Origin: Echinometra lucunter
Taxonomy: Eukaryota > Echinodermata > Echinoidea > Camarodonta > Echinometridae
Direction: 5' to 3'
Length of the DNA: 64,000 nt
NCBI GenBank assembly: GCA_029962745.1
Contig: CM057162.1
Location: forward strand, 8,191,080-8,255,079
Shown here: piece after piece, positions 2,034 through 64,000 of the stretch
How the letters are laid out: the number at the start of each line of letters is the position of its first letter
How positions within the stretch are numbered: the first letter of the stretch is position 1
The notes under the pieces: generated by a model
Databases searched by the model: none
The model's input: only the letters and a program-made list of their open reading frames with translations
Told to the model about the DNA's origin: nothing
Translations under genes and position numbers: made by a program

Positions 2034-2034
2034 C

Positions 2035-6663: not shown

Positions 6664-6850
6664 ATGTATGTACATTGTATACTTGAAAAACACAACAGGT
6701 GTCTCCTTTATCCATGTACAACTGTACACGTACACTTGAAAAACAACAGGTGTCTCCTTTACCCATGTACATGTACATGTAGACACCATAACCCAACACT
6801 ACCCGTGCACATTCTCATTGTGCATACATGTACATGTACATGTAGTACTG
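6664..6850. repeat. Short tandem duplication with TACATG microsatellite (copy A)
   Basis: The motif CTTGAAAAACA-CAACAGGTGTCTCCTTTA-CCATGTAC occurs twice in succession (about 6680 and 6733), followed by (ACATGT)n tracts. The same arrangement occurs at about 18450-18625. Confidence 0.6.
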
Positions 6851-8193: not shown

Positions 8194-8320
8194 TACATGT
8201 ACACGGCTTTTACTACTCGGGTCGCGTCACGTTGGAAACACTCGGGTCGCGGCTCGCTGGGTATGGCGCACAAAGTGTTAACTAGATTATTTGGTCCAAA
8301 ACTACAGTCAGTGTACAGTG

Positions 8321-10905: not shown

Positions 10906-11779
10906 GCCGACCCATACTACTGTCCTTCATCTTCTCCTTGTCTTCAGATTTTCACTGCAAACAAAGAAAATAAGCATAGGAAAAAAATATTGGTTTGCCA
11001 GATTTCTAGCTGGTTTTTATGAATTATTCTTACAACCTACTGATGAGCTTAAATCTCTCTCTCTCTCTTTCTCTCTTTCTTCTCTCTGTCTCTATGCATA
11101 TTGTGTACAGATAAACATATAAAACAGTCTTTAACAAAAGTTATCTGGCAGTTCATAGATTAACAGTTGTAAGAAGTACATGTATGAAGAGAATAAAGGA
11201 TAATGTTAGGCCTGACGTATGCAACAAAACTGATAGTTCAGTTCAATACACCCTCTGATTTATGTCCACATGCACATGGACATCAACTAGCCTACTTATC
11301 AGTCACTTTTGTTTAATAAAAGTATATTTGAATTTGTAATATCTTTTCACAGAAGCAATATTTGAAGCTGATATTTAGAAAAACAGTAAAGTGACAAGGA
11401 GATAATAACATACAGAGCAATATCTTTTTGGTGATTTGTACAGTTCAATAGAGATCCTGCATTTTTGCATACTGATGCAAACATTATTAAACACTCAGCA
11501 ACAACTATGGTTAATGAAAAACTCTGCTACACCAATTCAAAAAAATATTAACTCACACTATTGTTCAAATATTACTTCCTTCAAAGACATGATAAATATA
11601 ACAGTATATTATCCAAAGTCAGAAATAGTAGCAAAAAGAGTTTTATTTCGAAGAAAACCAATTATAACTAGGGATACAACAACCCACTATAATATAACAG
11701 TATACAAGGGTAGAAAAAATAAAAACAAGTTCTTATAGTCACAGAAAGAAAAATTACTATTCTGGATATAAAGACTCAG
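10906..11779. other. 3' flank of the 222-aa gene
   Basis: AT-rich sequence with a (TC)n tract near 11055-11100. It should contain the 3' untranslated region of the minus-strand gene, whose stop codon is at 11780-11782. I could not fix the polyadenylation site. Confidence 0.45.
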
Positions 11780-14700
11780 CTAAAAATGTAGTGAATATGA
11801 ATTGTTCTTGCTTATTTCCATAGCCACTTGAAGTTCCTCAACCTGTGAAAAAATAAGAAATACCAATAGAAATTGCTGATTTTGTGTGTATACATATAAA
11901 CATAATTTTTCCCTTAAACAAGATTACATGTAACCATACAACCTATGAATATGACATTGGATATTCATTCGACATTCAGTTTCTTTTCAAAATTATTACT
12001 GATAAACAGCTAAAGATATATATTTCAGTGTCAAATTCATTTGAAATTGTTCCAAAGAAGTCCATTCTATAAACTTTTCTTTTTCCAAAGATCATCATTA
12101 TATAAATATTTTTGGAAATGCTTTGCACAAGTGTAAAGAATCCAAGACTGTTTGAATGTTGACAACTTGATAATGAACATCTTAATAATATAAAACAATT
12201 GTATGATTTTATTTTGTCTTTATTTCATCTATTTCATTCATTTTTTGTTTTGTGGGGGAGGATAATAATTCTGGCAGCCTAGCTCTTTATAAGTGACATC
12301 ATTACGTTATCCCTCGCAATCTTATTACATCACTACATTTGTTTGTATGTACTTTATGTTCCATGACATATACACCTTAATGTTCAAAGGTTCATACGTC
12401 AAGTGCTAATTGAGTCTTATGTAGTTAAAAATGCGCTGCATAAATCCATCTATAGTTTTATTTGTAAACTCTGTAACTGGCACATATATATGCCTTTTAA
12501 TTGTGCACTGAGCCATGGAACCTCTCTATTTATTTTTAATATCAGTGACAACATATTTCAACTTGACATCGCGATGATATCTTGAGAATACTTACTCTCT
12601 CTACATCCTCTAAAAGCCATGTCATACTGTTGTAATCTTCAGATTTCATCTGCAAAATGAAAATATACAAAATCATCGTGCCATAAAGTTTGTTTGCATA
12701 GAAAGCAACAGTTTTATTCTGCAGGCTTTCTTAAAAAGTGTACTGTGCTTTATACATTCTGTATCGTGTACACGTTAGTGGGTTTACTTCTAGGACTTTT
12801 GTTAGATCACGCATTCTCATCCGTCAGTCTTTTAGTGCATACAAACACAACACACAAACACATACAGTCATACACACACACAAAATTGTTTTAGTCAACA
12901 TTTACTGTATCATGGGTGAATTTAATATTGCTACTTTTAATTCTTAAGGCTTGTTCAGATATGGCGCAACAAATCCCCATGACATTTTTAGTGTACAAGT
13001 TAACAGGATACGACACAGCAAAATGATGTCACTAAGGGAGGAGACATTTTTTGCCGCCTGGCTAGAAAAAGCTGTAGATCAATCAATTCTTAAAAAGTTA
13101 GCACAAAATGTGATGTTGAGTTTGTCTGTGCAACTTATGATAAAAATCTTTTTTATTTGAGAGTCGACACAAACCTTAATGGGCGTTCATGAATGGGGTG
13201 GTTATCTGAACACTAAAAATGTCGCCGGGGTTGTCATGGCCTTTATAGGACTATAAAAGAACAAAGACTTCCAATTTAAAAAAAAAAAAAAAAAAAAACC
13301 TCTACTAATTTATACTCACAGTTGAAAGTTTGGTGTGTATATACTCCAATACTTTGTCAAGCTCATCTAATCTGAAGAATACCTCTTTCTTCCTTTCAAG
13401 AGGAGCCATACTGCAGAAAAAAGGGAATAAGATCACAAAAAGGAATAAATGCCGCACAATACTCCCTTTGTGAAAAACATGTTTGTCACATTCCAAAGGC
13501 ATTTCATTTTCGCTTTGAATTCGATATTGGTAACGGAATGGCATTTCATTTCTGCTTCATTTCATTTTGCTCTGAATTCAATATTGGTAACCGAGTGGTA
13601 CTTTAATGTGTACATGTACTCTAGAAAGTCATTTGTATAATGAAAGTTCAGGGAGTTGCAATATTTTATATGATTTGATTTAATAGACTGAAGGTACTAA
13701 GCAAAATTTTCACTCGCTCATAAAGTTGTTGAATTGGTAAAATCTAAGAAAAATACACCTGTCAATTTTGAGGAAAAAACATCAATAAACTAGATGAATC
13801 TTCGACCACGCGTGGTCGAACTTTATGCCTCCGCCATTACCAAATCATAAATAAATGGCACTTCATGTTGATTTATTTTCATTTATACAATGACATCTTT
13901 GACCTTGATCTTTGACCTTGTGACCCCCAAATCTAATGAGAGCATTGCCGTTTCCACATGCATACATGAGCCAAGTTTGTTGAACTGTCAAATGGTTACT
14001 GAGTTATCACAAGAACGAACCATTTCTATGTTCATAATGACCTCTATGACCTTTGACCTTTGACCTTGAGACCCCAAAATCTAATCAGATCATTGTCCCT
14101 CCCATATGCATAACTGTGCCAAGTTTGAGGTTGATAGGTCAAATGGTTCTTAAGTTATCGCGAGAACGAGCCATTTTTATGTGTTTTATTAGCTCTATGA
14201 TCTTGACCTTTGACCTTGTGACCCCCAAATCTAATCAGATCATTGTCCCTCCCATATGCATACCTGTGCCAAGTTTGAGGTTGATAGGTCAAATGGTTCT
14301 TAAGTTATCGTGAGAACGAGCCATTTTTATGTGTTTTATTAGCTCTATGACCTTGACCTTTGACCTTGTGACCCCAAAATCTAATCAGATCATTGTCCCT
14401 CCCATATGCTACCTGTGCCAAGTTTGAGTTGATCTGTCAAATGGTTCTTAAGTTATCGTGAGAACGAGCCATTTTTTATGTGTTTTATTACCTCTATGAC
14501 CTTGACCTTTGACCTTGAGACCCCCAAATCTAATCAGATCATTGTCCCTCCCATATGCATACCTGTGCCAAGTTTGAGGTTGATAGGTCAAATGGTTCTT
14601 AAGTTATCGTGAGAACGAGCCATTTTTATGTGTTTTATTACCTCTATGACCTGACCTTGACCTTGAGACGCCAAAATCTACTCAGATCATTGTCCCTCCC

Positions 14701-17700
14701 CCACATGCATACACGAGCCAAGTTTGAAGTTGATCTGTCAACGGTTCTTAAGTTATCGCGAGAACGAAAACGGGACGGACGGACGGACGGAACGGACGGA
14801 CGACGACCGAAAACTAATGCCTCCGGCAACCACCTACGGTGGGCGGAGGCATAAAAAAAAAAAACCCTTGGTATCATTTTCAATACTAATTAAATTCACA
14901 CTAATATTGATTACCAGTACTCTAAAATTTCAGAGGAATTCCATACGAATGTCGGCTTTTGAATCAAAGATTCAGAATGCTTCCAATTTGCAGACATGTA
15001 ACGTCCAAATTTAAACATTTATAACTGAACAGTAAACTTACTCATCTATGATAAGATCTTGTTTTCTCATCCACTGCTGCCATTTTGGAGCCAGAGTGCT
15101 TCGGTTGTAGAGCAGTGGTGCGAAGAGAACAATGCGCATGTTGGTCTCGTGCACCTTGCGAGCTTCTCGTAGGTTTTTGTTCCATATCTCCACGACATCT
15201 TTCGTCTGAAGACAAGGCAGATGTGAAAAGGGGGCAGGGGCAATGAAACATGTTAAATATGAGATTTTAAAAAAATTTTTATATATTGTAGCTTAACCCA
15301 TTCATGACAGGAATGATTTGCAGGGGAAACAGTGATTTTAAACCTTCTATCACATTACCAATTTAAGGATTTTAATGCTTATTTTCCTTTCAAAAACATT
15401 TTCAGCATCAATATTGATGCACCAAAATGGGCAGTTCGTGTAGAATTTTTTTGCTCTTTCTGCTCATGTATTTGGTATGATTTTTAGGGCTTTGCATCAA
15501 AATATATTAGGCCAATCCACAAAATGTAGACCTCTGTCACAAATGGGTTAACTCCAAGAAGTCTTGGATTTTTTTTCTTCTTCCGATTGGCAACACAGGT
15601 ATTTTCGGTGATACATTTGTTCCTGTGACTCTCATTAAATATAATGAGATTTTTAAAAAATGTATATATTGTAGTTTAATTCCAAGAAGTCTTGGAATTT
15701 TTTCTTCTTCCGATTGGCAACATACGTATTTCGGTGACACGACATTTGCTCCTGTGACAATTGCTCGTCTTCATTTTTAAGAAGGCACAATGGTAGGTTT
15801 GGAGTTGCAATAGGGGTTTGGGTTCAGAATAATGTGAGAATATGGATTAAGGTTATTGTTAGATTTGGGGTTAGGTTTTATGTTTGGCTTAACCCATTCG
15901 TGACAGAGGTCCACAGTTTGTGGTTTGGCCTAATATCTTTTGATGCAAAGCCCTAAAAATCATACCAAATACATGAGCAGAAAGAGCAAAAAATTCTACA
16001 CAAACTGGGCCCATTTTGGTTGCGTCAATATTTGCTGTTTGATGCTGAAAATTTTTTAAAGGAAAATAAGCATTAAAATCCTTAAATTGGCAACGTGATA
16101 GAAAGTTTAAAATCACCGTTTTCCCCTGCAAATTGGCAACTTTTGACTTCTCATCATAACTTCTGTCAATTTATATTCATTTCAGATACATTACATTTGT
16201 AAGAAAAATGTAGCAATAAAATAAACATGTTGGTGTTGCCAATTTGAAGAATAAAAGCTGATTAAATTAGGCTTTAAATAATTCCTGTCACGAATGGGTT
16301 AACGTGCAGATTTTCCAAGGGAGCAATTGTCGCTGGAGTAAATGTCATGGACCCGGTATTTCACTCTTATTACTACGTTTCTTTTTCAATTAAAAAGGCA
16401 TGTATCTAATAATACAAATGGGCAGAAACTGTCAACAGATGATAGAATCTCTGATTGTACTGAAACATAGTGAATCTGATCAATCAATAACACAACTTGT
16501 TAGAAACCTAAGGATTTTTAAGCTAATTTTTCCTATTAAAAATCCCTTTAAAACATAAGATAAGGTAACCCTAATATCTACATGTAATTCTATTACAAAC
16601 ATTAAAAAAAAACAAAGAAAACAACAAATACACAGTTCTTTCTTGACCAAAGAGAATCAAATACGCATGTGTCTAAAACAATGGCAATGGGAATGAAAAT
16701 TGTTTAGTTTATTTTCATATTACACGAATTCAAACTTCTACTGCAAAAATTCATTACTGTGAATATATATATTATCAATAGCTACTCCAGGGTAAAAAAT
16801 ACCCTTTTTCCTACGAGAGTTATTCTCTGAAAAACAATAGCTCCCATCAACAACTTTTACAGGAGCTAATATAGACCCAAGAGATGTACATGTACACGTA
16901 GGTTGAATTGCTGATATTCCAGTTTTCTCCATATGTAAATTCTGCAGCTCCGAGGTCATGATTCGCGAATTTATTGCTTATTTTCAGAGCTGAAAGCAAG
17001 GACGAATTTGAAGAAACAGTCACCTCAAAGAATCAGGTCTTAAGGATTTTAGGGGGCTATTTAAGCTTTGCCAAGGGTGAAATTGCCCTTTGCCCCTTGT
17101 TAATTTTTACCCTGAACTAGTTCCAAATACTCACCTCACACTTTGCATGGAATCTTCCACATCTGCAGGGACTAAGCCTAGGCTTGATGTCAGGATGTGA
17201 AAAAATGGCGAGCTCTTTCTCTTTCTTCTTCCTTTCCCGTTCCCTTTCTTGTTCCTTCTCTCTCTCCTTCCTCTCTTGGTCTTCTTTCATAGCTGTGTAG
17301 AGGAAAAGAGAGGAAAAAAGCACATATCATCTTTTGCAGATATTCATAAGGCAACTTGACATAACTTCCTGTTTGAAATTTTCCTGCATTATGCAAGGTA
17401 TGAGATTGCACAATGGCAAAAAAAGACTGCAAGTACTCAGTTTCCACCCGTGTGTATGACCACAGCGCATCCAAAAAAACAAACAATAATAAAGAATAAA
17501 AACGTTAAAATTCCCTTTACTTACATGTAGGAAAGTGAAACAAAACAAAAACAAAAGAAGCTGGCAAATACAGACAATATGATTCATAAATTTATTTTCC
17601 CAAACAATGATATACATGTACATGTATCCCTTTTGATTTCGATGTAAGGGATTGATGAATAGAACAGAAGTCAGTCTTGTTTGGAGGGGGGGGGGGATGA

Positions 17701-20700
17701 GGGATAGTGTACAATTTTCCCCAAAAATGAGTAATACCCTGTTGTAAATATTATGTAATAAAACATTTGCAAAATAACCATTCAACAGTAAAAGGGGTAT
17801 CTCACTGGGCTTGAAACTAGTTCGCGACTAGTATGCGACTCCAGATTTTGCTAGTCGCAGAGATGTCTCCTGAAAATTATGGAGTCTCCAAGGAGTCGCA
17901 AGAAATTCGAACATGTTTGATTTGTTTGAGACTTTTTCCAGTCTCCGCGAGATCTCAGAGACATCTCAGTGACATCTCCATTAGTTGCGGAGATTATATG
18001 TTTCTGCGAGGTCGCAGAAACTTTGCTGCAACTATTGGAGACATCTCAGAGACTTCGCCGCGACCGAAGAGACGTCTCAGAGAGGTCGCCGTGACTGAGG
18101 AGACATCTTAGAGGCGTCTTGGAGATGTCTCCGCGAATTCCAAGCAAAGTGATTGACACCTGGCTTGGAGACATCTCCGATTAGTCTCCTAGAAGTTGCA
18201 CCTTGGTGAGAGCACAAACCATTTTTTGTCGCGGAGACGTCTTGGAGACATATTTGCGACAAAAAATGGAGACGTCGCGGTGACGTCTCCGTTAATGAGA
18301 GACGACTTTAACAGTAAAAAATGCTAGTACTGGGCGTATTTAACAAAAGTAATAGTTTCAAACCTTGTCCATTATTTACAAATTTATAATCTCCCCCAAT
18401 AAAATCCCCCCTCCCTTGCATGGACATCCAGACATCTGCTAGATGTATGTACATTGTATACTTGAAAAACACAACAGGTGTCTCCTTTATCCATGTACAA
18501 ACTGTACACGTACACTTGAAAAACAACAGGTGTCTCCTTTACCCATGTACATGTACATGTAGACACCATAACCCAACACTACCCGTGCACATTCTCATTG
18601 TGCATACATGTACATGTACATGTAGTACTGAGTTAAATATTAGACTTCTCTGGCTCTTGCCAAAGCTTACAGTGTATGAACACAAGCATATGTACGCACA
18701 TCACACATCCTTCAAGGTCAACTTTGTATCATAAAAGGTCAACTCATATCAGAGAGATATGGACTATGGACTTCCAAATAGCCTCTTCCATGCCAAGTAT
18801 TTGCCATTAAAGGCTACAATGCAACACAACCCTCACTCAACATGAATCATGAACCCTTAGAAGTCTTGCGGGTACATGTAAACTCACACACATACTCCCT
18901 ACATGTCTCTACTGTAAATGTACAAGAATGTGTACCGACTACATACAAGTACTTTTTACACTGTACGTGGCAGTTTTATGCATAGAGAAAAATTCAACAG
19001 AAAAACAGTATCTTGCCCTATCATAACTCAACTAAAACAACCCACCCCCAATAAAAAAAAAAAAATAGATAAATAAAATGAGCCTAAAAAGTACCTTTAA
19101 GAAACCATATGGCACTGGTTCAACAATATTGTGCAAATAATATTCACGATGATGAGCATAAAATGGACTTTGCACGAATTGCCTTCATATAGAGAAACAG
19201 ATACTACATGTACTGTACATGTATGCAGTGCATTTACTATTGCACAAATACGTGCATGTACATGATATAAGGATGAATATTATGCTGCGATTGGTTGGGT
19301 TCATGAAAATGATATGCATTTCACAATTTCACTGAATTCGCATTTTTTGGGCCTACATTATACATCTACATGCACAGAGTGTAAAAAGTGTAGGCCTACA
19401 TGTAGGTAAATATCATTGTAACACTCAAAAATAGTTTGGTGATGATGATGTTTCAATGGCATTTGTTGTGTCGTGTCACTTAGTAAAGTATTCTTCAGTC
19501 AAAAAATGATTCATGAGACAATTCATATATTAGTTCCAGTGAATATGATGATAATTGCACCTCTCTTATGGGTAGAGAGGGTGTGATAAACTGATGAATC
19601 CACAAGTGTACAGTCCGACCTCGCTTATCCGGCCACGTCGGGACTGGCACCCATCCGTATATTACATGTACATGAAATGGCTGGATATGAGAGTAATGTA
19701 GTGGGACACCTTTTCTATGAAAATTTATAAGGTAGAGCAGTCTATTTGCTGTAAAATATATATTTCCTTGGTGTTGTGGATGACTGTACATGTAAATGAT
19801 CAATAATATCTTTCTGTTTGTAGGAGATGAAAATAGAATAAAATAAAAGAGAAAATTGCCCACGATGTTTCCGTCTCCGAGGCTTTTAGGTAAACTGGAT
19901 GAAGAATATAAGCGGGAAGCTGGCCGGGAGATGCAGCCGGCCGGTTAATAGAGCAGTCCTGATAAATGAAGGCCGGATAAGCGAGGTTGGACTGTACATG
20001 TACACGGCTTTTACTACTCGGGTCGCGTCACGTTGGAAAACACTCGGGTCGCGGCTCGCTGGGTATGGCGCACAAAGTGTTAACTAGATTATTTGGTCCA
20101 AAACTACAGTCAGTGTACAGTGAAACCAAAATCCTCATAACCACGCCCACAAGCATATTCTGGTAAACTGATCCTCCTGCCCTCTGCCTATGCAGAAAGT
20201 GTTTGTAACGAAACAAAGTCAATGCCCGGGCGAAGTAAATATACCAGGCTTATAATGAGAGATCATAATTATAAATCCTGTCTGTTTATTCACAATGGTG
20301 GGAGGTGTTTGTTGCAAATTCGTCTGTTGCATTTCATTTTGTAACGAGATGGTTCACTGTTTGTGAATTCTATAAAGAAATAAAGTTTTGAGTGAACTTT
20401 TGACACAAAAATTGTGCAGTTTTGGACCGAATAACTTTGTTAACACTTGGTGCCCCATACCAAGCGAGCAGCGACCCGAGTGTTTTCCAGCGCGACGCGA
20501 CCCGAGTGTTTAGTAAAAGCCATGTACACTGCATATATGAAGACTTGAGAACTCCATCAAGGATAAGACCATGGGAGCGGCCAGGAGTACATGTACATGT
20601 ACAACGCAGAAGGGTTAGGAGTGCAAGACTCAAAAACCCCAGAAGAACCCAGAACGATAATTTGTTTTATCTTTCATACTCATATGAGCAAGTGTCGAAG

Positions 20701-37495: not shown

Positions 37496-37548
37496 ACATA
37501 TTCTTCTTCCCCATGCAAGAAGTTCATACATGGAAGGCATCAAATTAA

Positions 37549-38458
37549 CTGAAACTGAACCAAGATAAGACCGAGCTTGTAGTGTTTGCCTAAAAACCCA
37601 TCAGCGTCTGTTCTGAGACTTCAAACTTACTCTAAACGATAACACAGAGTTGAAGCCCTCACCGCATCTTCACATCCTTGGAGTCATCTTTGACAATCCC
37701 TTGCTTCTGGATGATCATGTTTCAAATGTTGTTAGGACTGTTAAATTTCACATCCGCAACGTAAGCAGGATCAGGAAATGCCTAGATGAAAGCACTGCCC
37801 ATGCTGCCGTTCGTGCCCTGGTCCTGTCATGCCTTGATTATTGCCACAGTCTACTTTACGGTACTACAACTATCCATCGTCTTCAGTTGCTTCTGAACCA
37901 TTCTGCACGCCTTATCTTTTGTCAGCCCAAGAGCACACACACCGCACCTCTACTGAACACTCTTCACTGGCTACCTATACAGCAAAGACTCCAGTTTAAG
38001 ACTGCTGCACTTGTATTTAAGTCGCTAAACGGGCTGTCTCCCTCATATCTGTCTGATCTTATTCATGTGAAACACTCCAGTTATAATCGAAGGTCAAACA
38101 CCAGTATAGTAATCCAAATTCAAATATGTCGGACCAATGCTGGCAAGCGGGCATTCGTAGCACGGTAGTCACTGCTCAAAAAACATGGAACAATCTACCC
38201 AACTCTATGAAGAATGCAGGTTCACTTAGTATGTTTAAGAAAAATCTAAAAACACATCTTTTCTGTTAATATCTGCTTGTCCACATTCATCCTTTTGTAC
38301 ATGTATAAGTTATCATTAGTCAACTTCATTTAACTTCTTTATGTTACTCTTAATATTACAAATAAGTTTATGTTTTGTATCATTGTTAATGTTTTTCATC
38401 TGTATTAAAGAGCTTTGTATCTCCTGTAAGAAAAGGGACTATAGAAATTATTATTTAA
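37549..38458 (+). mobile_element. 3' end of an L2/CR1-type LINE (reverse transcriptase C-terminus)
   Basis: Translation gives the familiar C-terminal reverse-transcriptase region: LNQDKTELVVF, LGVIFDNPLLLDDHV, CLDYCHSLLYG, LLNTLHWLPIQQRLQFKTAA and LNGLSPSYLSDLI, then (after a -1/+2 shift near 38165) TWNNLPNSMKNAGSLSMFKK and a stop at about 38268. The 3' tail ends GGGACTATAGAAATTATTATTT. It is 5'-truncated and frameshifted at least twice, so not active. Confidence 0.88.
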
Positions 38459-38790
38459 AGTCATGGGGAGTTTCTTCAATAAGGGATATAATATTCAAAA
38501 AATTTCTCAATCTTTTTCTTTAAATGTTCTGAAACATGCAGTGTTTGTCTGCAAACATGAAAATATGACAACCATTTTTTGTCCTTGTCAGCATAGAAAA
38601 AAATCTTACATTCTAAGAAAGTTCTCTCTTGCTAATGTTTGCTAATTCATTACATAAGTTTGTCTAACTTCAGCAAGTGTGATTTGACAAAATTTTGAAA
38701 ATCCAAACATTCCCCCCCCCCCCCTTCTTCAAAATTGTCTAGCATCACCCTTGGACATGTCCCAGCACAAAAAATTGTAGGCAAACTTAC
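38459..38790. other. Sequence downstream of the Death-domain exon
   Basis: AT-rich, with a poly-C run at 38710. If the Death-domain gene continues, this is its intron. No exon was recognised here. Confidence 0.4.
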
Positions 38791-39080
38791 GTGGACGTCC
38801 TGGTCTGTTGAACGTCATGGTGAGTTTCTTCACGTAAATGGAACCACCACCCCTCCTGACCCCACCATTGTCGCGCCACGCCTTTATCATCTGGAAGAAG
38901 GCATCCTGAAGGCGTGGGTATTTCTTCCGATAGTTTGCCAGTTCCTGAGAGTTATAGCCCAGATCGTCGCCGATGCAAGGCCAGTCAGCTTCGGTGTATT
39001 GCCTGGATTTAATCCGTAGGTCAATATCCGTCATTTGGTCTGTCAGCAGTTCAGTGTCCCGAGAGCCATCAGACTTTGGA
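38791..39080 (-). CDS. Death-domain exon of the 2A-leader gene
   Basis: A 290-nt internal exon on the minus strand, with acceptor TTTAACTTTCTTTAG and donor GTAAGTTTGCC. Its first base completes the codon split at the end of the leader exon. Residues about 70-127 of the joined product read YTEADWPCIGDDLGYNSQEL, then NYRKKYPRLQDAFFQMIKAW, then RDNGGVRRGG. This fits the Death-domain pattern (Trp opening helix 1/2, the LG turn, the LLxxW-like FQMIKAW helix). The exon ends in phase 1, so more protein must follow. I found no partner exon at lower coordinates. A NACHT domain on a large exon would have been visible and is absent from the window. Confidence 0.78.
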
Positions 39081-40029
39081 CTAAAGAAAGTTAAAAATCA
39101 ACTTGTTTTCTCAATTTACATAAGTTAATAATTCTTCCTTTTCCTTCATTTTTTTTTTTTCTTCAATAATAAAAAAAAGATGTATAAAGAAAATAATTCT
39201 TTTTTTTGGGGGGGGGGGGGGGGGAGGTACAGGAATAGAAGGTAAACAGACCCACAGATCATTATGCATTTTCTAAGACAGTCTGGACATCGTTAGTGAC
39301 TCCTCCAGAAGAGTAACATTCTAAAGCCCAGTTCAGACAAGATGCATTAAACCAAAAACCTGCTGAAACAAAAGATCTTGTGTGAATGAATACCTAGAGG
39401 GCCATACCTTTAATAAGGGGTAAAAATAAAAACCTAACGCTCAATAATAAATCAAAAGCCTGATCCCTTAAATCTATGCGTTTCATAATACAGAACGAAT
39501 TAAGCGTATCACTCATCTCAATTTATTCTGCTGCAGGATATTATTTCTTTCTTTCTCTTTGCTTATTTTTTCATGATTTACCACAAAAAAAAAAAAAAAA
39601 AAACCTAAAAAGATGTAAAGAGTGCACTGCACATTAAGCCGCAGCGTTTTCATTAACCAACAAATCTGTCATTAGTCAATAGATAGATTTGCAAGTTTAT
39701 ATTAACATTAATTCCATACACACAAACAACTGAATATGTTTGGGACTTGTCATCTCCCTCCCCACAATTTTCTTCTCCCCCCCCCCCCCCCATTTCAACA
39801 CTCGCAATTCATTTATGCATGAAATGGTCCTCATTGTGCCATGATGTCCTTTTGAGAATCTTTGTTTTTCTGCTTCATGTCTGAATGGGCTTGGAGGTCC
39901 GACTTACGCTCTGGAAACGCGCACCGATGCAACTGTACCAGGCAACTTGGGCCTAGGGCCAGGGTTGAGCTCCACATCTCCAGAGAGGATGAGAAGGATG
40001 GGCAATGTGAACAGTTTCATGACATCCAT
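38791..40029 (-). CDS. Two-exon 5' part of a gene: 2A-type signal leader plus Death domain
   Basis: Exons 39908-40029 and 38791-39080 join with an 827-bp intron, splice phase 2, giving 137 residues before the next donor. Residues 1-16 are a short hydrophobic leader, 17-25 the 2A motif, 26-68 a basic, Pro-rich linker, and 70-127 a Death domain. In sea urchins, 2A-like signal sequences have been described at the N-termini of NOD-like receptors; there the leader either directs export or is released by ribosome skipping, giving two fates for the downstream protein. Here the rest of the receptor is not seen, so it could be a truncated relative, a short Death adaptor, or a gene with distant exons. 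The 2A/Death join is an inference from matching splice signals and phase. Confidence 0.72.
39081..39907. other. Intron between leader and Death-domain exons
   Basis: AT-rich, with poly-G (39207-39224), poly-A (39584-39603) and poly-C (39777-39791) runs. No other feature seen. Confidence 0.55.
39908..40029 (-). CDS. Leader exon with canonical 2A ribosome-skipping motif
   Basis: From the ATG at 40029 the exon reads MDVMKLFTLPILLILS, then GDVELNPGP (residues 17-25), then RPKLPGTVASVRVSR, up to the donor GC|GTAAGTC at 39907/39906. DVELNPGP fits the 2A consensus D-V/I-E-x-N-P-G-P exactly; skipping would occur between Gly24 and Pro25. The preceding Leu/Ile-rich stretch looks like a signal sequence. 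A second in-frame ATG at 40020 is an alternative start. A short out-of-frame upstream ATG overlaps the start. The exon is too short to stand out as an open frame. Confidence 0.82.
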
Positions 40030-40492
40030 GCTGCTTTCATATGCAGAGCAATGGATGCACTCCCACACACGGCAACCTCTTCAAAGTCAATTCAGCTGAA
40101 TGATTAAAAGAAGTAAATACCAGATAAGTTACACATGGCAAATTAACAAACACAAAATGCTTTTTATACATGTACCTAGATCCCGTACTTGCACCATATG
40201 TCCCACATCCTGTACGACCCTCTCCGGGATGCCCTTTTATCCTGTATTGCAAACTTGCTGATGAAATAATGGAATATTTAGCAAAAAAACTACATGCATA
40301 CATGTAATGTAAAAAGAAGCATGCAGAAGCAGAAAATTGTCATATTTTGGGGGCTCACTTGCTTCACTCACTTGCTAGGTTTGGAAAGTAGAATGTTTTT
40401 CTGGGGAAACAGCACATTCCTCTAGCTAAAGTACAAAGTACAATAATTTACTCAACAGTCACTCATGAGCTGGGATTATTATACATGTACAT

Positions 40493-41371
40493 TAGGGCTG
40501 TAAATTTAGCACCATGTTCAGGTTCAGTTCGGTTCGGCAGAGTTCGGCACTTTTATTTCTGAATTTTGGTTCGGTTCGGGGTTCGGCATTACAGTATAAA
40601 AATACAAAAGGGTGAGCATCAATAACAAATGACCACCAGAACCCTCTCTATCTTTACTGCTCTTGGAAGTCACTGTTTCTTATAAAAAATAGTTACTGCA
40701 TTTATTGCAAGATTCTTTGTTATATTTTATTTTTTCTGAATGAAAGGGAAAGATACATGTAATTTTCATATACTGATTAATAGAAAACAAGAGAAAATTT
40801 TTTAAAAATCGAAATAAAGGAAAGGAACGAAAATATTAAAAGAAATTATCAATAAAGCAGTGTTTTTCTATTTTTTTATTTTTAGAAATATTTGTTTAGT
40901 ATTATGATTGATCATGATTGTTAATCGATTATAACCTCATTATGATCAATTACAATTGAGAGTATCTTCGGGCATACTTTGAAGCTTTAAACATGATTTT
41001 GGGGGAAACAACTAGAATTCATGGTGCCAAATATTATGAAATTTATCAGAATCAAAGGAAAAGGAGACACAAGCTGTATTAAGTGCTTTTCTATCTTTTA
41101 TTTAAGAAAAACTTTTAGAAGATGAATTAAAAGAAATAAATGTATGTATTAATAAATGTATGTATTAATTTTTTAATAAAGCAAAGGTGTATCTCCCATT
41201 TAGCATAATAAATTCAGGACAAGGTCTTCATCGAGGGCTGAATCAATGATCCTGTGTTATAAACTGCCGAACTTCCGAACTTGGCCTTTGAGTTCGGTTC
41301 GGTTCGGTCCTAATCGGAAGTGCCATGTATGGCGAACTTCCGTTCAGTGCGGCGGTTCGGTAACAGCCCTA
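40493..41371. mobile_element. hAT-type non-autonomous element with perfect 8-bp target duplication
   Basis: Ends TAGGGCTGT and ACAGCCCTA are inverted and flanked by ATGTACAT on both sides (40485-40492 and 41372-41379). Subterminal GTTCGGTTCGG repeats near the left end match CGGTTCGGTTCGG and CCGAAC repeats near the right, as in hAT transposase-binding regions. The 879-bp interior is AT-rich with no transposase frame. The target site is itself one of the abundant TACATGTA microsatellite tracts. Confidence 0.87.
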
Positions 41372-56100: not shown

Positions 56101-59100
56101 TATGCTCAGCCTGTGGGCTTGTGGATCTCGCTGGCGTGGTCATTGAGATGGAATCAACGGCATCGTAGACCTCGTTGACCTGTCGGATGCAGTGTAAAAG
56201 CGTTATTGTTGATATCCAAAAGGCAATCATATATACATATACCCGGGTCGTTCCTGGGAAATTTCAGGAAAAGACCGGCGGGCCGCCGATGGTACACCTA
56301 CGGGACACCCGCAGATTCCCTGCCGATCGCCGGTTGGACGCTGGGCGATTTCTTAAAAATCGGCCGTTGGCAGGTGGGAGATTGTGCAGGAACCGATGGG
56401 TCATCATTCGGTCACTGCTTGGATGCCGCGAGGAGAAAATCCCCCGACATTGCCAACTTTTTACCTAAATCGATCGGCAACCGACAGGACATAGGCCGGG
56501 CATTGCTGAGGCTTTAGAGTCCGCTCGAATCGTTGGGCGATGCCTAAATTCCAGCGGCGCCGGAGTAGGCTGCAGATCGGTTGGTCGCCGCTGGCTTTTG
56601 TGACCTTAGCATTAGGCCGCTTATCAAAAATCTCGTCCTGTGTCTTTGATCATCTTTTCCTAATTGGCTCTGACTTTTGTTAGGTGCCTAAGAAAGCTGA
56701 TGCTTCAAGGCTTAACATTGAAGTAAACCAAGGAATTAAGTACATGTATCTCATCCAAGTCTTTTGAAATGAAATCTTACACATACATGTCCACCTAATC
56801 TTGTGCCTGTTTCCCATTTTTCCAGATCTTCTTGAAAGCCTTTCAGACCAGTCCGTGAGGTACGGCTCAGTGAGGCTTGCCGTTCCTCCTGGTTTCCAGA
56901 ACATCATCAGACCATCTCACACGAGGTTCTACGGGAACAACCCAAAGATAGAATCAGGTTCATTGCTGATTTTCTTCAGGATGTTCTCAGATTAGAGACA
57001 GTGAGTTACAAGTTACATGTAGTTGCCCACATTTGCACAACATTGTTTCAGAATTTTAAGAGGAATAAGCCAATTTCATTTCAAGTGACAGATATTTATG
57101 TAAAACTATCATGTTATCAAGTTTACAACAATATTCCAAAGAATAAGTGAAAATGAATGGTTTTACTCTTAAAGCATCATTAAGATGCCTTTACAAAACA
57201 AAGAAATAAAAGAAATTTGTGTTGAATATTTCTTTCACAATCCTAAATGGGAATGTACTGGGATCTAAAATTTCACGAGTGTTTTTCTATGGCTTAAAGC
57301 AATCTAAAGTAAAACTTTTGTGCAAATTGGGTGCCACTTGCAAATGTGGGCTACTACCTTGAACTGGTGTTTGGGAGGGGAGGGGCTAGGGGGTTAAAAT
57401 ATTTGTCAGTTTTGATCATTTGTACATTGTAGCTCAAGTGTTACAATTTTAAAATTTGAACAATTCCAGTCAGAGTGAGTTTTGTGCTATTTTGTTCCCT
57501 TTCCTTTAAAAAAAATACTACAATAATGACCGAAATATTACTGATGAAAAAAATCTGCTCTACTCCCATCTTTACAATCGTGGGCTCTACCATTGCATAC
57601 TTGATGTAGGTGCTGCACACTAAGAAAAAAAGGTGCAATCTTGCACCCTTCAAATGCAACATTGAGAGCACCTTTTAGGGTGCAAAATTACACCTTTTAA
57701 CAGATTTGCACCTTTAAAGGTGCATTAGCGGCATTTTTGCACCCTAAAGGGTGCAGAGTTGCACCCGTTCAGAAAAGGTGCAAATTTGCACCTTTTGTAC
57801 AAAAAAGTTGCATCTTTTAGGATGCAACGGGCATTTCAGGGTGCAAACAAGAACGAAAAGGTGCATTTTTGCACCTTTTTTCGTCCGGGGTGGAAGATTG
57901 CACCGAAAAAGGTGCAGCCAGTGTTTCATTTAGGGTGCAGTTATTTTCTTAGTGTGTGGAATGCTAAGAAAAGATTGGAATGGGGGGGGGGGGGGCAGAG
58001 CATCGTAAGCAGTAAGCAAATGATGGTTATTTTCAGTTCAGTTCAGTTCAGGTGTGTTTATTTCTCATGTAACGTAAATACATATCAAACAAACAAACAG
58101 AAATTACAATATAAGAAAAAAATGATATACAAAAATTGAAGCAAGTTGGCAATAGATACATAGATACATATACAAAACCTATAGCATGATTATACAGCAA
58201 ATAGAAAACATGAGAAATGAGGAACTAAAAAAAAGCAAAGCTTGTAAAACATTAGTTCCCCGGTGATCAAATACAATTATCAAGTTATAAAGTCAAAATA
58301 AATTTGTATATACCAAATTATGGAGGATTATACATTGCCTTGTAGAAATATGGTTTTATATGTTTTTTTTAAAATTTGCTGAATTCATGTATTTTCCATT
58401 TTAGTTAGTCTCACTCATGTTCCACTTCCTTCATTACATGTATTTGACCAAACACTGTGCATGTAATATATCCATTCTTGAAATTTATACCCTTTGGTTA
58501 CATTCATTTATCAATACATTCTCTAACCTTTCTATTGGTGTATTTAAGGACAGAATGTCCTTAAGTACACCATTCAGAAATGTTCTTGCTTTTGAAACTG
58601 TATGTAGGTACAGGCTATGACCCGGTTCAACAGGGGGAGCTTATTGAGCGATTGCAGGCTCAGTATAGACAGCTGAGAAAGGACAAGGGCATGTTAGCAG
58701 AGCAGCAAGTCAAGAGACTGTACCACAGGAAGGGGATGAGACAGGGGGGAGAGCAGGGGGTGATGCTGCCCCTTCTACCAGGAACAAGCTACAGGTATTG
58801 GGGATGCATGGGTAACATGACTTGTGCTCCAGATGGCTATATTTCCTCCATGCTTTATTTTGTCAAAGATAGGGTTAGTTAGGGATTGAGTTTCAGGGTG
58901 TGATTCAAGGCTGTGGTAGTGGTTAGGCGCCTTATGAAAAGTCAAAGCCAATTTGGAATGCAGCCTTAGCGTCTTTCCCGCTCAGCAAATCTTTTCCCCT
59001 CTGATCCTCCCGTTTGTGCGTAAACAATACAATGGGGGATAAGGAAAGCCGATGTAAAAGAAACGGTCATGGTGAAGATGATGAAAGACGTGGATGAGAG

Positions 59101-61650
59101 TTTTGATCAGCGTCCTTAGGACTTGCGATGTGGATTGAGGTTTTGATAAGGATTGGGTAGTAATCATTTCCAATCTAACATTATTTGCCAATTTGAAGAA
59201 TGAAATCTAATCAGTTCAGCCTTCAAGAAAGCCGACTCCTGAATTAACAACAACGCTATCCTCAATTAGATATGAAACCTATTTATAGTTAGCTTTCAAG
59301 ATATTTCTATTAATTGATTCCTGAAGAAGTTATTTTATCCCTGATACAACAATTACAGTACATTGAACCCTAATAATTGTCATCAAGAAATTTATTGATG
59401 AACATAATGGTTAAATTTGTTTTTTTTTTTCTTCTTTAGATTACCAATCACCACATTTTTCCTTTATAGCTACATTTTTTTCAAAGAAAGTGCCATGCAG
59501 TCTAAAAATATACCTCTTGTCAAATATGAACATTTAAAGATTAACAGTTATATTTCCTTTTTGACAATTCCTTGCATTACATGCTATATTGAATAGCACA
59601 GAAAAAAGGGGGGGGGCAGTGACAGAGTGAGCTAAATATTTTTTCATTTTTATTATTATTATTTTTTTTTGCCCATGATCCATCAATCAGCACTATGTGC
59701 CATGCAGCAAAGTGAAATTGCTAAGCAGTGCTATCTTGCTAAGATGTGAACCTGTTCAAAGTTAGCCTTTAACCTATGCCAAAACAATTATCATTTTCTA
59801 AGTGGATGTAAAACAATATTTATAATCTGATGTAGTTTAAATCATTGTGTAACAAGTCAAAATATGATATTCAGCCATACACCATGCATTTCACCCGGAT
59901 GTTACAGTAACTCTCTTAAATTTCATTCATTAAAATTTAGTAGTGGCGATCACCAATAACCTGATACCTTCTCTGGCAAACATCACAGGTGTCACTTACT
60001 CCTTGCATTATTTGCATGAATCAAAAGAAAAGTAATAAGTAAGCTTGTCTTGAGATTTAGTTTATAGGTGGGAACTTTGCTTTCTGTGAAAGCTCCTTGT
60101 AAGGTAGCTTTTTAGCGAAAAATAGTGGCACAAAAAGATAGGTAAAGAATACAATACATGCATACTGTTTGTCTGTAGTATGCGTGTTCTGGAGAGCCTT
60201 TCATGAAGTGTATTGTCAGTGATTTTTTCTGAAAAAGTTGCTCTCAGCCATCAGATGCAAGGATTCCCAGGAACTTATAACAGTTGTCAGGAAAAAATCA
60301 CTGACAAGATGCTTCATGAAATGCTCCCCTGGACACATCTTTCATTCCACTCTCTTTTGCTAAGCTATGTAGCTGACTTTTTCATTTCATTTCACTATGC
60401 TCTATCTCTACTACTACCAGAAAACACTGTCAACATTGGTTCATGATGTCATCGGAGAATGGTGAGGAATCGGTGAGTCAGGATGCCACAGATGGAGGAG
60501 AAAGAGGCAGCACCTCAGGATACTGAAGAAGCACCTCAGGAAACAGAAGAAGCACCAGTACACTCTGAGGCAGCACCGCAAGAAACCAAAGAGGCACCAC
60601 AAGAAACCATTATGGAGGAACAACCTTCTGAGGATGTACAACCTGAAAGCCACAGAAGAGGCTGCAGATGGCACAGAGCCACCAACTGAACCAACGCAGG
60701 AAAACCAGAAGAGCCATCAAAGGAGCCAGCAGAGCCAGCGCAGGAGCCAACCGAACCAGCACAGGAGCCAACCGAACCGCACAGGAGCCAGCCGAACCAG
60801 CACAGGAGCCAGCCGAACCAGCAGCAGGAGCCAACCGAACCAGCAGAGGAGCCAACCCGAACCAGCACAGGAGCCAACCGAACCAGCACAGTGAGCCCAG
60901 CCGAACCATCAGAGGAGCCAGCCCGAACCAGCAGAGGGAGCCACCGAACCAGCAGAGGAGCCAGCCGAACCAGCACAGGAGCCAACCGAACCAGCAGAGG
61001 AGCCAACCGAACCAGCACAGGAGCCAACCGAACCAGCACAGGAGCCAGCCGAACCAGCAGAGGAGCCAACCGAACCAGCAGAGGAGCCAGCCGAACCAGC
61101 ACAGGAGCCAGCCGAACCAGCACAGGAGCCAACCGAACCAGCAGAGGAGCCAACCGAACCAGCACAGGAGCCAACCAAACCAGCACAGGAGCCAGTCGAA
61201 CCAGCACAGGAGCCAGCAGAACCAGCACAGGAGCCAACTGAACCAGCACAGGAGCCAGCCGAACCAGCACAGGAGCCAGCCGAACCAGCACAGGGTCCAA
61301 CCAAACCAGCACAGGAGCCAACTGAACCAGCACAGGAGCCAACCGAACCAGCACAGGAGCCAACCGAACCAGCACAGGAGCCAGCCGAACCAGCACAGGA
61401 GCCAACCGAACCAGCACAGGAGCCAACCGAACCAGCACAGGGTCCAACCAAACCAGCACAGGGTCCAACCAAACCAGCACAGGAGCCAACCGAACCAGCA
61501 CAGGAGCCAACCGAACCAGCACAGAAGCTGACTGAACCAACACAGGAGTCAACTGAGCCAGCGCATGATCCAATTGAACCAGCACAGGAACCTCCTAAAA
61601 CTGAGGAGGAATCCAGTGTAACCACAGAAGAGCCTTCAGAAGCAACCTAG
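50197..61650 (+). CDS. Four-exon RIIa-domain (Sp17/CABYR-type) protein with E-P heptad repeats, frameshifted
   Basis: Coding exons: 50197-50203 (MS plus one base), 56826-57000, 58614-58794 and 60421-61650. The seven-base first coding exon ATGAGCG|GTAAGA joins in phase to exon 2, giving MSDLLESLSDQSVRYGSVRL. Exon 2 encodes an RIIa dimerisation/anchoring domain: AVPPGFQNIIRP, then ISHEVLREQPKDRIRFIADF and LQDVLRLET. This resembles the sperm protein Sp17 and CABYR, which dock on A-kinase anchors in the flagellum. Exon 3 adds GYDPVQQGELIERLQAQYRQ and a basic helix. Exon 4 encodes acidic sequence then about 40 heptads. The frame needs single-base corrections at about 56911, at the exon 3 start, and at several sites in exon 4. 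Sequencing error is likelier than pseudogenisation because most of these are homopolymer indels and the frame is otherwise well kept. Exon 1 assignment is inferred from phase only. Confidence 0.68.
50835..51280 (+). mobile_element. LINE reverse-transcriptase C-terminal remnant
   Basis: Translation in shifting frames gives CEVWNPHTTASVEDFER, AARFIHRDCRKSTSSSQLVS, LFAQLTLWIFHSLSITPA, then YSFYPGTVRIWNRLPYAAIN and LTTFQAAAL. This is the usual end of non-LTR ORF2 (VWxPHT...RRAARF...TVRxWNxLP). At least two frame breaks or stops make it inactive. It differs from the L2/CR1 fragment at 37549, so it is a different clade. Confidence 0.8.
51619..52282. repeat. Fold-back element with ~230-bp arms
   Basis: The left arm (about 51632-51868) and right arm (about 52020-52240) are inverted copies. 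Shared blocks are CCGTCTACGGACAAAGCCAA, TTTAACAAATTGCGTCAAAA, CTCTGGCCAACCAGCAAACC and TTGTGGAATGGAC-type ends. GTTACTGCCAATA occurs in direct orientation at both outer edges (about 51619 and 52269), possibly a target duplication. Confidence 0.85.
55729..56614. mobile_element. GC-rich non-autonomous DNA element, ~886 bp
   Basis: Inverted ends TAATGCTACGGTCACAAAGC and GGCTTTTGTGACCTTAGCATTA (two mismatches and a one-base indel). The interior is far richer in G+C than its flanks, with repeated CGATCGGC / GCCGATCGCCGG-type motifs. No coding frame was recognised, so the superfamily is unassigned. It lies in intron 1 of the RIIa gene, about 210 bp before exon 2. Confidence 0.72.
56826..57000 (+). 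CDS. RIIa-domain exon
   Basis: Acceptor TTCCCATTTTTCCAG, donor GTGAGTTAC. The first 90 or so bases read in one frame (LLESLSDQSVRYGSVRLAVP, PGFQNIIRP). The remainder reads in the next frame (ISHEVLREQPKDRIRFIADF, LQDVLRLET). One missing base near 56908-56916 restores a continuous RIIa domain of the usual layout. LREQP is the conserved core. Confidence 0.78.
57001..57615. other. Intron 2 of the RIIa gene, first part
   Basis: AT-rich. No exon or bounded repeat seen before the GGTGCAA element. Confidence 0.5.
57616..57956. mobile_element. Inverted-repeat element with internal GGTGCAA/TTGCACC motifs
   Basis: Perfect 13-bp ends CACACTAAGAAAA (57616-57628) and TTTTCTTAGTGTG (57944-57956). Inside, about 18 copies of AAGGTGCA(A) or TTGCACC(TTT) in both orientations allow many alternative hairpins. 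A CACTA-type start suggests EnSpm/CACTA, but the flanking trinucleotides do not match. Confidence 0.75.
57957..58613. other. Intron 2 of the RIIa gene, second part
   Basis: Poly-G run at 57982, (TTCAG)n at about 58034-58052 and AT-rich sequence. Nothing coding. Confidence 0.5.
58614..58794 (+). CDS. Third coding exon of the RIIa gene
   Basis: Acceptor TATGTAGGTACAG, donor GTATTGGGG. Encodes YDPVQQGELIERLQAQYRQL, then RKDKGMLAEQQVKRLYHRKG and ending PGTSYR. A phase mismatch with exon 2 would be solved by one extra G at the acceptor (CAG|GGCTATG), giving LETGYDPV as in RIIa proteins. It ends in phase 2, matching the next exon. Confidence 0.7.
58795..60420. other. Intron 3 of the RIIa gene
   Basis: AT-rich. 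Contains the short CCAAT element at 60189-60332 and a pyrimidine-rich stretch leading to the acceptor at 60418-60420. Nothing else recognised. Confidence 0.5.
60189..60332. mobile_element. Short inverted-repeat element with degenerate CCAAT motif
   Basis: Ends CTGGAGAGCCTTTCATGAAG and CTTCATGAAATGCTCCCCTG. Inner GTCAGTGATTTTTTCTGA pairs with TCAGGAAAAAATCACTGAC. Contains CTCTCAGCCATCAGATGC, one A short of AGCCAATCA. Sister of 36526-36682. Confidence 0.78.
60421..61650 (+). CDS. Terminal exon with acidic region and ~40 E-P-A-Q/E-E-P-T/A heptads
   Basis: Acceptor CTCTACTACTACCAG. The frame runs MMSSENGEESVSQDATDGG, then after a one-base shift EAAPQDTEEAPQETEEAP and on through heptads encoded by the 21-bp unit GAACCAGCACAGGAGCCAAC-C. 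It ends TEEESSVTTEEPSEAT at the stop 61648-61650. Frame breaks fall at about 60503 (AAA for AA), 60650 (AAA for AA), 60700, 60779 (A lost) and several sites to 60945. From 60951 to the stop the frame is clean. The true frame has no ATG near its start, so other frames (Q-P-N-Q-H-R-S heptads, or L-V-R-L-A-P-V on the minus strand) look longer. Confidence 0.72.
60730..61600. repeat. 21-bp coding minisatellite, about 41 units
   Basis: The unit is GAACCAGCACAGGAGCCAAC plus C. Variants alternate CAACC/CAGCC and CACAGG/CAGAGG, plus a GGGTCC variant near 61293, 61440 and 61461. Length is a multiple of three in the clean part, so copy-number change keeps frame. Confidence 0.93.
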
Positions 61651-62250
61651 AATGACAAGAGACACTAATAAGATCTTAATCCCTCTTTATTACCAACTTG
61701 GTGAACATTTGTATCCACTCTTTAAAAAAACTTTTTATTTCTTTCTATAACTGGGCAAAACTTTGCATATCTTGACCTGCTTATGTATGAAAGCGACATG
61801 TCTGGCTAATTATAATCAATGTGTCTGAACTAATTGAATTTAAGTCTGCTACATGTAGCTAGCTGTCGATAAAACTTGCAAAGTCAGCTGAATAGGAAAC
61901 ATAGCGAGGTATTTTTTCCTGGGCCAAAAACCTAGAAAAATGATAAATACTCATATTTCTGACCTGAATATGGAATTTGAATCATTTGTCTTTTGGGCAG
62001 TTATTGACACAGGTGTACTTAACCTTTGGATCTAATGCTTTACCTAACCCTAATCCTTAAATAGATTGAGGTAAAACTCAATAATAATAGTGATGGCTAA
62101 TTGAATAGTGTTATTATCCATCACATTATCATGCTTAGACATTATCATCCCAGTCATAGACGAGCAGTCGCCATACCCGTTTACACTTGGGCGGACAGTG
62201 GCAAATGTAGATTAATTTTTGTAAGAGATGCTTGCCAGGGATTTCAATCT
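61651..62250. other. 3' untranslated region and flank of the RIIa gene; SINE fragment
   Basis: Probable 3' UTR follows the stop. At about 62160-62250 a stretch including GGACAGTGGCAAATGTAGAT and CCAGGGATTTCAATCTAGG resembles part of the SINE at 24531-24886. Confidence 0.5.
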
Positions 62251-62391
62251 AGGCCCCATCTTACAAAGAGTTGCGATTGATTCAAATCGATCGCAACTTT
62301 GAGGTTGATCTCAACTGTGTACTTAAGAGATCTTTAGGAGTTGAGATCAATCTCAAAACAATCGCAACTCTTCATAAGACGGGGCCCCTGG
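62251..62391. mobile_element. Short inverted-repeat element, ~140 bp
   Basis: Ends GGCCCCATCTTACAAAGAGT and ACTCTTCATAAGACGGGGCC. GTTGCGATTGAT pairs with ATCAATCTCAAAACAATCGC. It has the size and G/C-run ends of the CCAAT-bearing elements, but I see no CCAAT box. Confidence 0.75.
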
Positions 62392-63100
62392 AAACTTTTC
62401 TTCCTGATTACGACACCTTAGCAACAAAGCCAGGCTGTATAACCTGTCTAAAACAAAATACTAGTAAGATAAGAGCAACACTGCTAATGCAAATGCCAAA
62501 TCATTATATTGACAGGGATTTCACAAAGGAAAACAAACATTTGGTGCATGCTTATGTGATTTATATTAGTCCTCATCTCCTAATGTGTGCTTACAGAAAA
62601 AAGAAACATAATGAGCTACGCAATGTAAATGTTCCATACAAATTTTGTATTCATTATTTTCTTAGTTTTCTAAATTTCCTTTTTTTTTACTGAAATATGG
62701 ATTTTGCTCATATATGTAATTGTTACGAGTATTCTGATCTTGCCATTGTGAATATACTTGTTATTTTCAATAGTTTTTGAATTTGTTTTTTTTTCTTCAC
62801 AAAAGTGATGTCTGTATAGCAACCCACCTTGAAAGTTGAATTCAACAATGCAAATTCACATCGTTATTGTTCATTTTTTGATTTCAGCATTCTGATGTTA
62901 ATTACAAGTGAAATATTAAACAGAAGTTTTATCTCATGATTGAATTGGACACTAGTTTTTTTTTTTTTTTATGTGATGCCTTGTTGAAGTGCTTGTAGGA
63001 ATGAACATTGAATTTCATTTGAGCTCCATTGTAATGTTGATATATGTCAGTGATGTGCTTGACTGTTTGTACTTAACTATCGTGTGACCGTGACCCTTAA
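62392..63100. other. AT-rich intergenic, nothing recognised
   Basis: Poly-T tracts and no supported exon or bounded element. Confidence 0.5.
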
Positions 63101-63456
63101 GGTGCTTTCACACATGATGCGACAGTGTGGTACCACACTGTGGCACAACACTGTTTTGTCTCCACACATGGTGGGACTTTGTGTCACCACATATGCTAAT
63201 GAACGCGCATTAACGCGTCAACTCCAATAAGAGAGCATATTGTAAAAACTTGCGCAAGCCATCTCATGGCAACAATTATTGCGCTAACTTTTTAGAAATT
63301 TGATTGGTGCACATTTTTTGTGTATCTAGGCAGCAAAATAAGTGTGTCCTGCCTCGGCGACATTTTTTTGTCGCCCTATACCCGATAGGCTTGTACACAA
63401 AAAAGTGTGCCGCCACAGTGTGGTACCACATTGTGGCATCATGTGTGAAAGCACTT
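63100..63456. mobile_element. PIF/Harbinger-like MITE, first of a head-to-head pair
   Basis: Ends AGGTGCTTTCACACATGATG and CATCATGTGTGAAAGCACTT, flanked by TTA on both sides. The interior (CTAACTTTTTAGAAATTTGA, GGCAGCAAAATAAGTGTGTC) is the reverse complement of the interior of the next element and of 1154-1452. Confidence 0.8.
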
Positions 63457-63459
63457 TTA

Positions 63460-63731
63460 AGGTGCGTTCAGATACGATGCGACTTTGTACCGCACATTGT
63501 GCCATTGGAGCAACAAAAAACTGTTGCCGAGGCAGGACACATTTTGGTTTGCTGCCTGGCTGCAAAAAAATGCGCTCCAATCAAATTCCTAAAAAGTTAG
63601 TGCAAAAATGTTGTCATGAGATTGTTTGGGCAAATTTGACAACATTCTCTCTTATTTGAGAGTTGATGAGTTAATGCGTGTTCATTAGCATAAGTGGCGG
63701 CACAAAGTCGCATCATATCTGAATGCACCTT
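63460..63731. mobile_element. PIF/Harbinger-like MITE, second of the pair
   Basis: Ends AGGTGCGTTCAGATACGATG and CATCATATCTGAATGCACCT, with TTA at its left shared with the first element and TTA at its right. Its interior matches 1154-1452 (CAATCAAATTCC, TAAAAAGTTAG, TTATTTGAGAGTTGA). Confidence 0.8.
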
Positions 63732-64000
63732 TATTATCATTGCCACCATCATCTTCATCATCGTCATCACTATCACCATCAATAATCGTCATTGTCATCA
63801 TCATTAATAATCTATCATCATCATCATCATCAATAATTTATCACTATCATTTTTCATCATTGACATAATCATGATGAGTAGATTTTCTGGAAGTGTTTGA
63901 ATAAATCAGAAAGAGAGCATGCAACATGCACACAACGGACTTACATACAAAACGCAAATCAAAAGTACAACATGATGGGAAGATGAATGCAAACTGCGAG
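63732..64000. repeat. (CAT)n / (ATC)n microsatellite and flank
   Basis: Degenerate CATCATCATC and ATTATCATTG runs from about 63733 to 63875. The last 120 bases show nothing. Confidence 0.75.

Follow-up and report, generated by a model that had tools for sequence, protein, structure and literature searches.

A 2A leader joined to a Death-like exon in the sea urchin Echinometra lucunter: a probable Death-only gene

The stretch of DNA analysed here, hereafter the window, comprises 64,000 nucleotides of the sea urchin Echinometra lucunter (C12:8191080-8255079 of the 743-Mb assembly GCA_029962745.1, contig CM057162.1). Between positions 40029 and 38791 of its minus strand it carries a two-exon gene in which a 2A ribosome-skipping leader is joined to a Death-like exon, and no NACHT exon is detected in the window. 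NLRs and non-long terminal repeat (non-LTR) retrotransposons are named as the cellular homes of 2A in the relevant passages of PMC11512398 and PMC4981915. What, then, is made from such a leader and such a domain when no receptor core follows them? An earlier note, written from the sequence alone, had proposed a shorter Death-only product, a truncated paralogue or distant exons. The absence of NACHT and the short gene model of Lytechinus pictus support the first option: the locus is probably a single-copy gene with a counterpart in L. pictus, whose 2A leader and Death-like exon, followed by 38.8 kb devoid of NACHT, would give rise to a free Death-only protein.

Two exons and their counterpart in Lytechinus pictus

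Exon 1 (40029-39908, minus strand) is 122 nt long, that is 40 codons and 2 nt, compared with the “about 41 codons” given in the earlier note. It opens with an ATG at 40029 whose context is favourable for initiation (A at -3, G at +4), is preceded by an in-frame stop at 40083, and encodes the 25-residue leader MDVMKLFTLPILLILSGDVELNPGP and 16 further residues, RPKLPGTVASVRVSRA, the last codon being split. The phase-2 donor GTAAGT at 39907 opens an intron of 827 nt (39907-39081, minus strand; acceptor CTTTCTTTAG), and the split codon is completed by exon 2 (39080-38791, minus strand; 290 nt, 96 full codons), which holds the Death-like domain. Joined together, the two exons form an open frame of 137 aa, and their GC content (0.54 and 0.52) exceeds that of the intron and flanks (0.34-0.37). 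A phase-1 GTAAGT lies directly after exon 2, at 38790; if it is read through, the frame gains 20 residues (38790-38729, minus strand) and closes at a stop at 38731-38729, which provides an alternative 3' end and a protein of 157 aa. The exon coordinates, the GDVELNPGP leader, the donor, the 827-bp spacing, the acceptor and the split codon described previously were all confirmed on the sequence.

The search with the window protein against 5.77 billion sequences (34 candidates scored) returned a sole match, L. pictus LOC129267035, an uncharacterized protein of 173 aa with no Pfam domain listed (E 8.6e-50). The match covers 96% of the query at 66% identity; of 136 residues aligned, 89 are identical. 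The start, the 2A sequence and the exon junction are common to both. When the L. pictus protein was compared with the window by tblastn, its residues 1-40 were placed at 40029-39907 (E 3e-12) and residues 40-144 at 39082-38771 (E 4e-38). Both exons are thus recovered with the boundaries predicted, which lends the splice independent support. The window gene is real and apparently conserved. The leader is the best-conserved part, which argues for selection on it: 21 of 25 residues are identical, compared with 59 of 92 for exon 2 and 8 of 15 for the linker. GDVELNPGP is unchanged at all nine positions.

The 2A/StopGo octapeptide DVELNPGP (39978-39955, minus strand), with a predicted skip between Gly24 and Pro25, is the only match to the 2A pattern in the window, remains so when one mismatch is permitted, and has no equal in 100 dinucleotide-preserving shuffles. 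It is preceded by LLILSG in the window gene and by LLILCG in L. pictus; by eye, both fit the L-rich class of upstream hexapeptides ending in (A/S/C)G before the D, which is described in part of PMC12846837 and includes an active member, motif 6. The same (A/S/C)G precedes the octapeptide in 23 of the 23 leader and Death loci of this genome that were compared, the window's included. The hydrophobic core LFTLPILLIL (40014-39985, minus strand), a candidate signal-peptide h-region, has a mean Kyte-Doolittle hydropathy of 2.85 over 10 residues, compared to 3.23 in the tested SpNLR2A6 leader. Across the 22 other leader and Death loci the values range from -0.18 to 3.23, and the core of the window gene exceeds 15 of them. 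In hydropathy it is comparable to SpNLR2A6, and the leader represents a candidate signal sequence of the unskipped protein.

The Death-like domain and the NLR module

The Death-like nature of exon 2, as proposed in the earlier note, is supported by a profile of the genome's own exons and by the predicted fold. A Death profile built from 14 leader-associated exons of this genome, picked by eye, ranked exon 2 first of all open reading frames (ORFs) of the window (10.5 bits, E 0.096), and the 11.3 bits reached by exon 2 with this profile were attained by none of its 2000 shuffles. For the predicted fold, with a predicted local distance difference test (pLDDT) score of 80, the Foldseek output began with Death-domain entries, which filled the first seven rows for PDB and the first 21 for VIA. 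Besides this predicted fold, exon 2 shares with the Death domain (PF00531) the pattern of helices 1-5 (W..I/L..LG and ML/MI..W). Sequence searches of solved structures gave no match with the A1 profile and three chance-like matches, to unrelated proteins, with exon 2 alone.

Within the 743-Mb genome, the single strong match of exon 2 is exon 2 itself (2.6e-62). The remaining ten matches are weak (E 0.95-7.7); seven of them sit 0.9-1.1 kb before a same-strand NACHT among the matches listed (here and below, the best 99 of 219 candidate NACHT matches), and five of these seven also lie 0.4-1.9 kb behind another 2A site. No single weak match is significant; as a set they correspond to the pattern expected from a diverged member of the NLR Death family. 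Judging from sequence and model, exon 2 likely encodes a Death-type domain, a diverged relative of the Death exons that accompany the 2A-leader NLRs of this genome.

Exact D-V-E-x-N-P-G-P sites occur 83 times in the genome, and the backwards pattern used as a control does not occur. Thirty-four of the 82 sites outside the window were read, 20 with 10 kb and 14 with 3 kb of sequence. Twenty-two have a leader and a same-strand Death exon, comprising the 14 eye-picked loci from which the profile was built and eight detected by the profile among 14 loci outside its construction; one of the builders, L014, was left out of the later profile scan on account of Ns in its ORF. Eight sites (L009, L017, L022, L025, L042, L044, L045, L051) are retrotransposon-like, as judged by visual inspection (long ORFs, a Y/F-A/V-D-D motif), and four (L016, L019, L043, L047) are neither. 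A second Walker-type match in the retrotransposon-like L025 (5.4 bits) was taken as chance. All 22 leader and Death loci have a phase-2 GT 5-14 nt after NPGP, the donor being GTA in 21 (GTAAGT in nine) and GTTTGA in L010.

The genome was also searched for paralogues with NACHT. A NACHT exon is present inside the stretch read in 11 of the 22 loci, and eight more have a same-strand NACHT within 29.1 kb downstream among the matches listed, which brings the total to at least 19. For L020 and L040 another 2A site is nearer to their NACHT, so that at least 17 loci have a NACHT of their own; such unshared pairs extend to 26.2 kb among the matches listed. For 44 of all 83 sites, the matches listed include a same-strand NACHT no more than 39 kb downstream, at a distance of up to 10 kb for 29 of them; 41 different NACHTs are involved. 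Within 10 kb upstream, no site has one among the matches listed. With at least 19 of 22 leader and Death loci having a downstream NACHT, the window leader belongs to the known NLR 2A-Death-NACHT module, and the kinship with sea urchin NLR leaders proposed earlier is borne out within the same genome. In PMC4981915 (Roulston et al. 2016) this module is described for NLRs of S. purpuratus, with an N-terminal hydrophobic leader of about 25 residues ending in D-V-E-x-N-P-G-P and a Death-type region. Both are shared by the window gene, in which, as at the other leader and Death loci of this genome, a phase-2 junction links the leader exon and the Death-type exon. The window gene differs in that no NACHT is found in the window, in that its donor stands 47 nt and not 5-14 nt after NPGP (a chance GT occurs at 8 nt), and in that its Death-like domain is diverged and single-copy in its genome.

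A NACHT profile built from nine exons of this genome scored at best 4.0 bits in the window, compared to 561 and 627 bits for two true exons left out of the profile. Among the matches listed, no NACHT lies within 60 kb downstream of the window gene, and the nearest one on its contig is 5.36 Mb away. The earlier statement that the window has no NACHT or LRR (leucine-rich repeat) exon therefore holds for NACHT; as to LRR, Pfam frame scans gave no match but are insensitive, a control frame with the Death exon having scored nothing. These scans, which covered the window apart from 1-29999 on the plus strand and 8319-8849 and 59037-64000 on the minus strand, produced two chance-level names only, Ferlin_C (E 0.079) and ArAE_1 (E 0.22). 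No Rfam match was obtained. A viral origin was rejected, as no related locus was found in IMG/VR with the L. pictus protein as query and no viral structure matched at E <= 0.001.

Three other loci with a leader and a Death exon, L026 (C14:18909170), L028 (C14:19367671) and L049 (C18:24008013), have no same-strand NACHT within 60 kb among the matches listed. Their leaders are nearly identical to those of loci having NACHT, and they may be further receptor-free copies or gaps in the NACHT list.

Competing explanations and surroundings of the gene

Several observations weigh against a free-standing Death-only gene. The match of exon 2 to the Pfam Death profile (16.9 bits, E 0.0073) falls below the curated gathering cutoff of 22.6, as does that of the L. 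pictus protein (15.0 bits), and it spans helices 1-5 only, helix 6 not being recognisable; on this side the Death-like assignment of the earlier note is weaker. The predicted model, made from two sequences, has strands where helix 6 is expected, and the structure prediction of the whole L. pictus protein is poor (pLDDT 57). A third exon that would complete helix 6 (phase-1 acceptor, D/E/N-L/V/I/M-A/V/S pattern) was sought within 30 kb, with no strict candidate and two loose ones. In addition, the conservation with L. pictus ends near the GTAAGT at 38790, and the 20-residue read-through and the L. pictus tail are not clearly shared, the latter giving chance-level matches only against the window. 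The L. pictus gene model also closes with an unconserved tail past exon 2. The 3' end is a predicted one, with a perfect GTAAGT directly after exon 2. Finally, the two NACHT pairs shared with a nearer 2A site slightly lower the odds of a Death-only gene and slightly raise those of distant exons.

If the GTAAGT at 38790 were a real donor, the gene could encode an NLR, or some other long protein, with further exons that are situated outside the window or are small and escaped recognition. The hexanucleotide occurs only 16 times on the minus strand of the 64 kb, which makes a chance match within a few bases of the end of L. pictus conservation unlikely, and the unshared leader-NACHT pairs of this genome span distances that would accommodate such exons. 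This explanation nevertheless seems rather unlikely, given that the own-genome profile finds no NACHT in the whole window, including the 38.8 kb downstream, that the nearest listed NACHT on the contig is megabases away, and that on the minus strand of positions 1-38790 the stop-to-stop ORFs outside the N gap are at most 166 aa long. Moreover, no annotated protein of 187-1235 aa with leader and domain was found at E <= 10 (127 and 200 candidates in two length windows), and the L. pictus model is short. The distant exons considered in the earlier note have thus lost ground, though the GTAAGT after exon 2 still speaks in their favour. Less probable again is a decaying, truncated NLR paralogue. 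An NLR-type leader and a Death-like exon with neither NACHT nor a recognisable helix 6 would suit a pseudogene, but the leader and exon 2 have intact frames and are conserved together in L. pictus, most strongly the leader, and the genome search revealed a single copy and no close NLR parent.

The 2A sequences of non-LTR retrotransposons, reportedly treated by Odon and co-workers in 2013, have the same octapeptide as the window leader and often L-rich upstream residues, and the leader might be imagined as a remnant of the ORF of such a long interspersed nuclear element (LINE), unrelated to the Death exon. Retrotransposon-like ORFs with 2A were indeed found at eight of the 34 loci read, and the 3' end of a LINE-like element is found on the opposite strand, 0.6 kb downstream. 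However, in those loci 2A continues into retrotransposon-type ORFs, whereas the window leader is followed by a donor and a Death-like exon: its frame ends 24 residues from the start of the octapeptide, past the phase-2 donor as in NLR-type genes, and reaches a stop with no long ORF. The L. pictus protein joins the same leader to the same domain, and a search confined to the window showed no second copy of 37500-40500. The LINE origin, which the earlier note had named as the finding that would overturn its proposal, was examined, is already largely refuted and was rejected as scarcely credible. It is also very improbable that the exons are real while 2A is inactive, the leader being a plain signal peptide of a small secreted or membrane-delivered protein. 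The strong hydrophobic core and the good start codon context would agree with this, and so would the Leu at position 11 from the final Pro; SpNLR2A6 carries an Arg there, and its replacement by Ala reduced skipping (PMC4981915). On the other hand, the conservation of GDVELNPGP in two species goes beyond the needs of a signal peptide, the upstream class has an active member in motif 6, and the (A/S/C)G ending is common to all leader and Death loci compared.

The LINE-like element mentioned above is a 183-aa ORF (37617-38165, plus strand), antisense to the gene and outside it, with no Pfam match; it resembles the C-terminal end of a reverse transcriptase from a CR1/L2-type LINE. Elsewhere in the window, positions 1-8320 are repeated at 11794-20122 in the same orientation with 98% identity, the first copy ending at a 500-N gap (8321-8820), and this 8.3-kb repeat reflects either a duplication of recent date or a haplotype copy left unmerged during assembly. 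Both copies contain a tandem array of 5.8 copies of a 150-bp unit (2109-2984 and 13896-14767), and 12 copies of a 47-bp unit are located at 10344-10906. A further array of approximately 41 copies of a 21-bp unit (60714-61589, plus strand) gives rise to an open frame of 251 aa (60895-61647) made up of EPAEPAQEPT-type repeats. It may be an exon of a repetitive protein, although the opposite strand has long open frames too.

Predicted products and their significance

For the Death-only gene favoured here, transcription, skipping, localisation and partners are predicted from sequence. Translation would leave the bond between Gly24 and Pro25 unformed, so that two products arise: a leader peptide of 24 residues and, in the cytosol, a Death-only protein that starts at Pro25 and has 113 residues to the end of exon 2, or 133 with the stop at 38731-38729. 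In the relevant part of PMC4981915, skipping of about 80% is estimated for one such sea urchin leader, with Golgi/secretory routing once skipping is blocked, and the unskipped form of the SpNLR2A6 leader is shown to enter the secretory route in HeLa and plant cells. By analogy, the unskipped minor fraction of the window protein would retain its hydrophobic leader and likely take the secretory route. Perhaps, and this is put forward tentatively, one leader serves both as skipping switch and as export signal, a cytosolic Death adaptor or decoy being accompanied by a secreted pool in a ratio set by skipping efficiency. Six other leaders of this genome (L011, L012, L013, L046, L050, L052) have little hydrophobic core, with hydropathy from 1.13 down to -0.18; dual targeting of the SpNLR2A6 type may therefore apply to only part of its 2A-leader NLR family.

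As its domain appears to be a diverged relative of the Death exons of 2A-leader NLRs, the free Death-like protein would most likely act as an adaptor or decoy in the Death-domain assemblies of these receptors. A comparable logic is known from the CARD-only and Pyrin-only regulators of vertebrate inflammasomes, in which a free-standing death-fold domain exists beside receptors with the same domain type; to our knowledge, none of these regulators has a 2A leader.

Searches of the open-access literature gave no description of a receptor-free 2A-Death gene. If the proposal is correct, the window gene would, going by the relevant passages of PMC11512398, be the first cellular case of 2A that belongs neither to an NLR nor to a retrotransposon. 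A 2A-Death gene kept receptor-free in two urchin species would demonstrate that the module functions alone. It would also offer a small target (137-157 aa) for the question why cells make one Death domain both inside and outside the endoplasmic reticulum. Being single-copy and having a clear counterpart, the gene would make selection on the skipping residues measurable, which is harder in the multi-copy NLR families.
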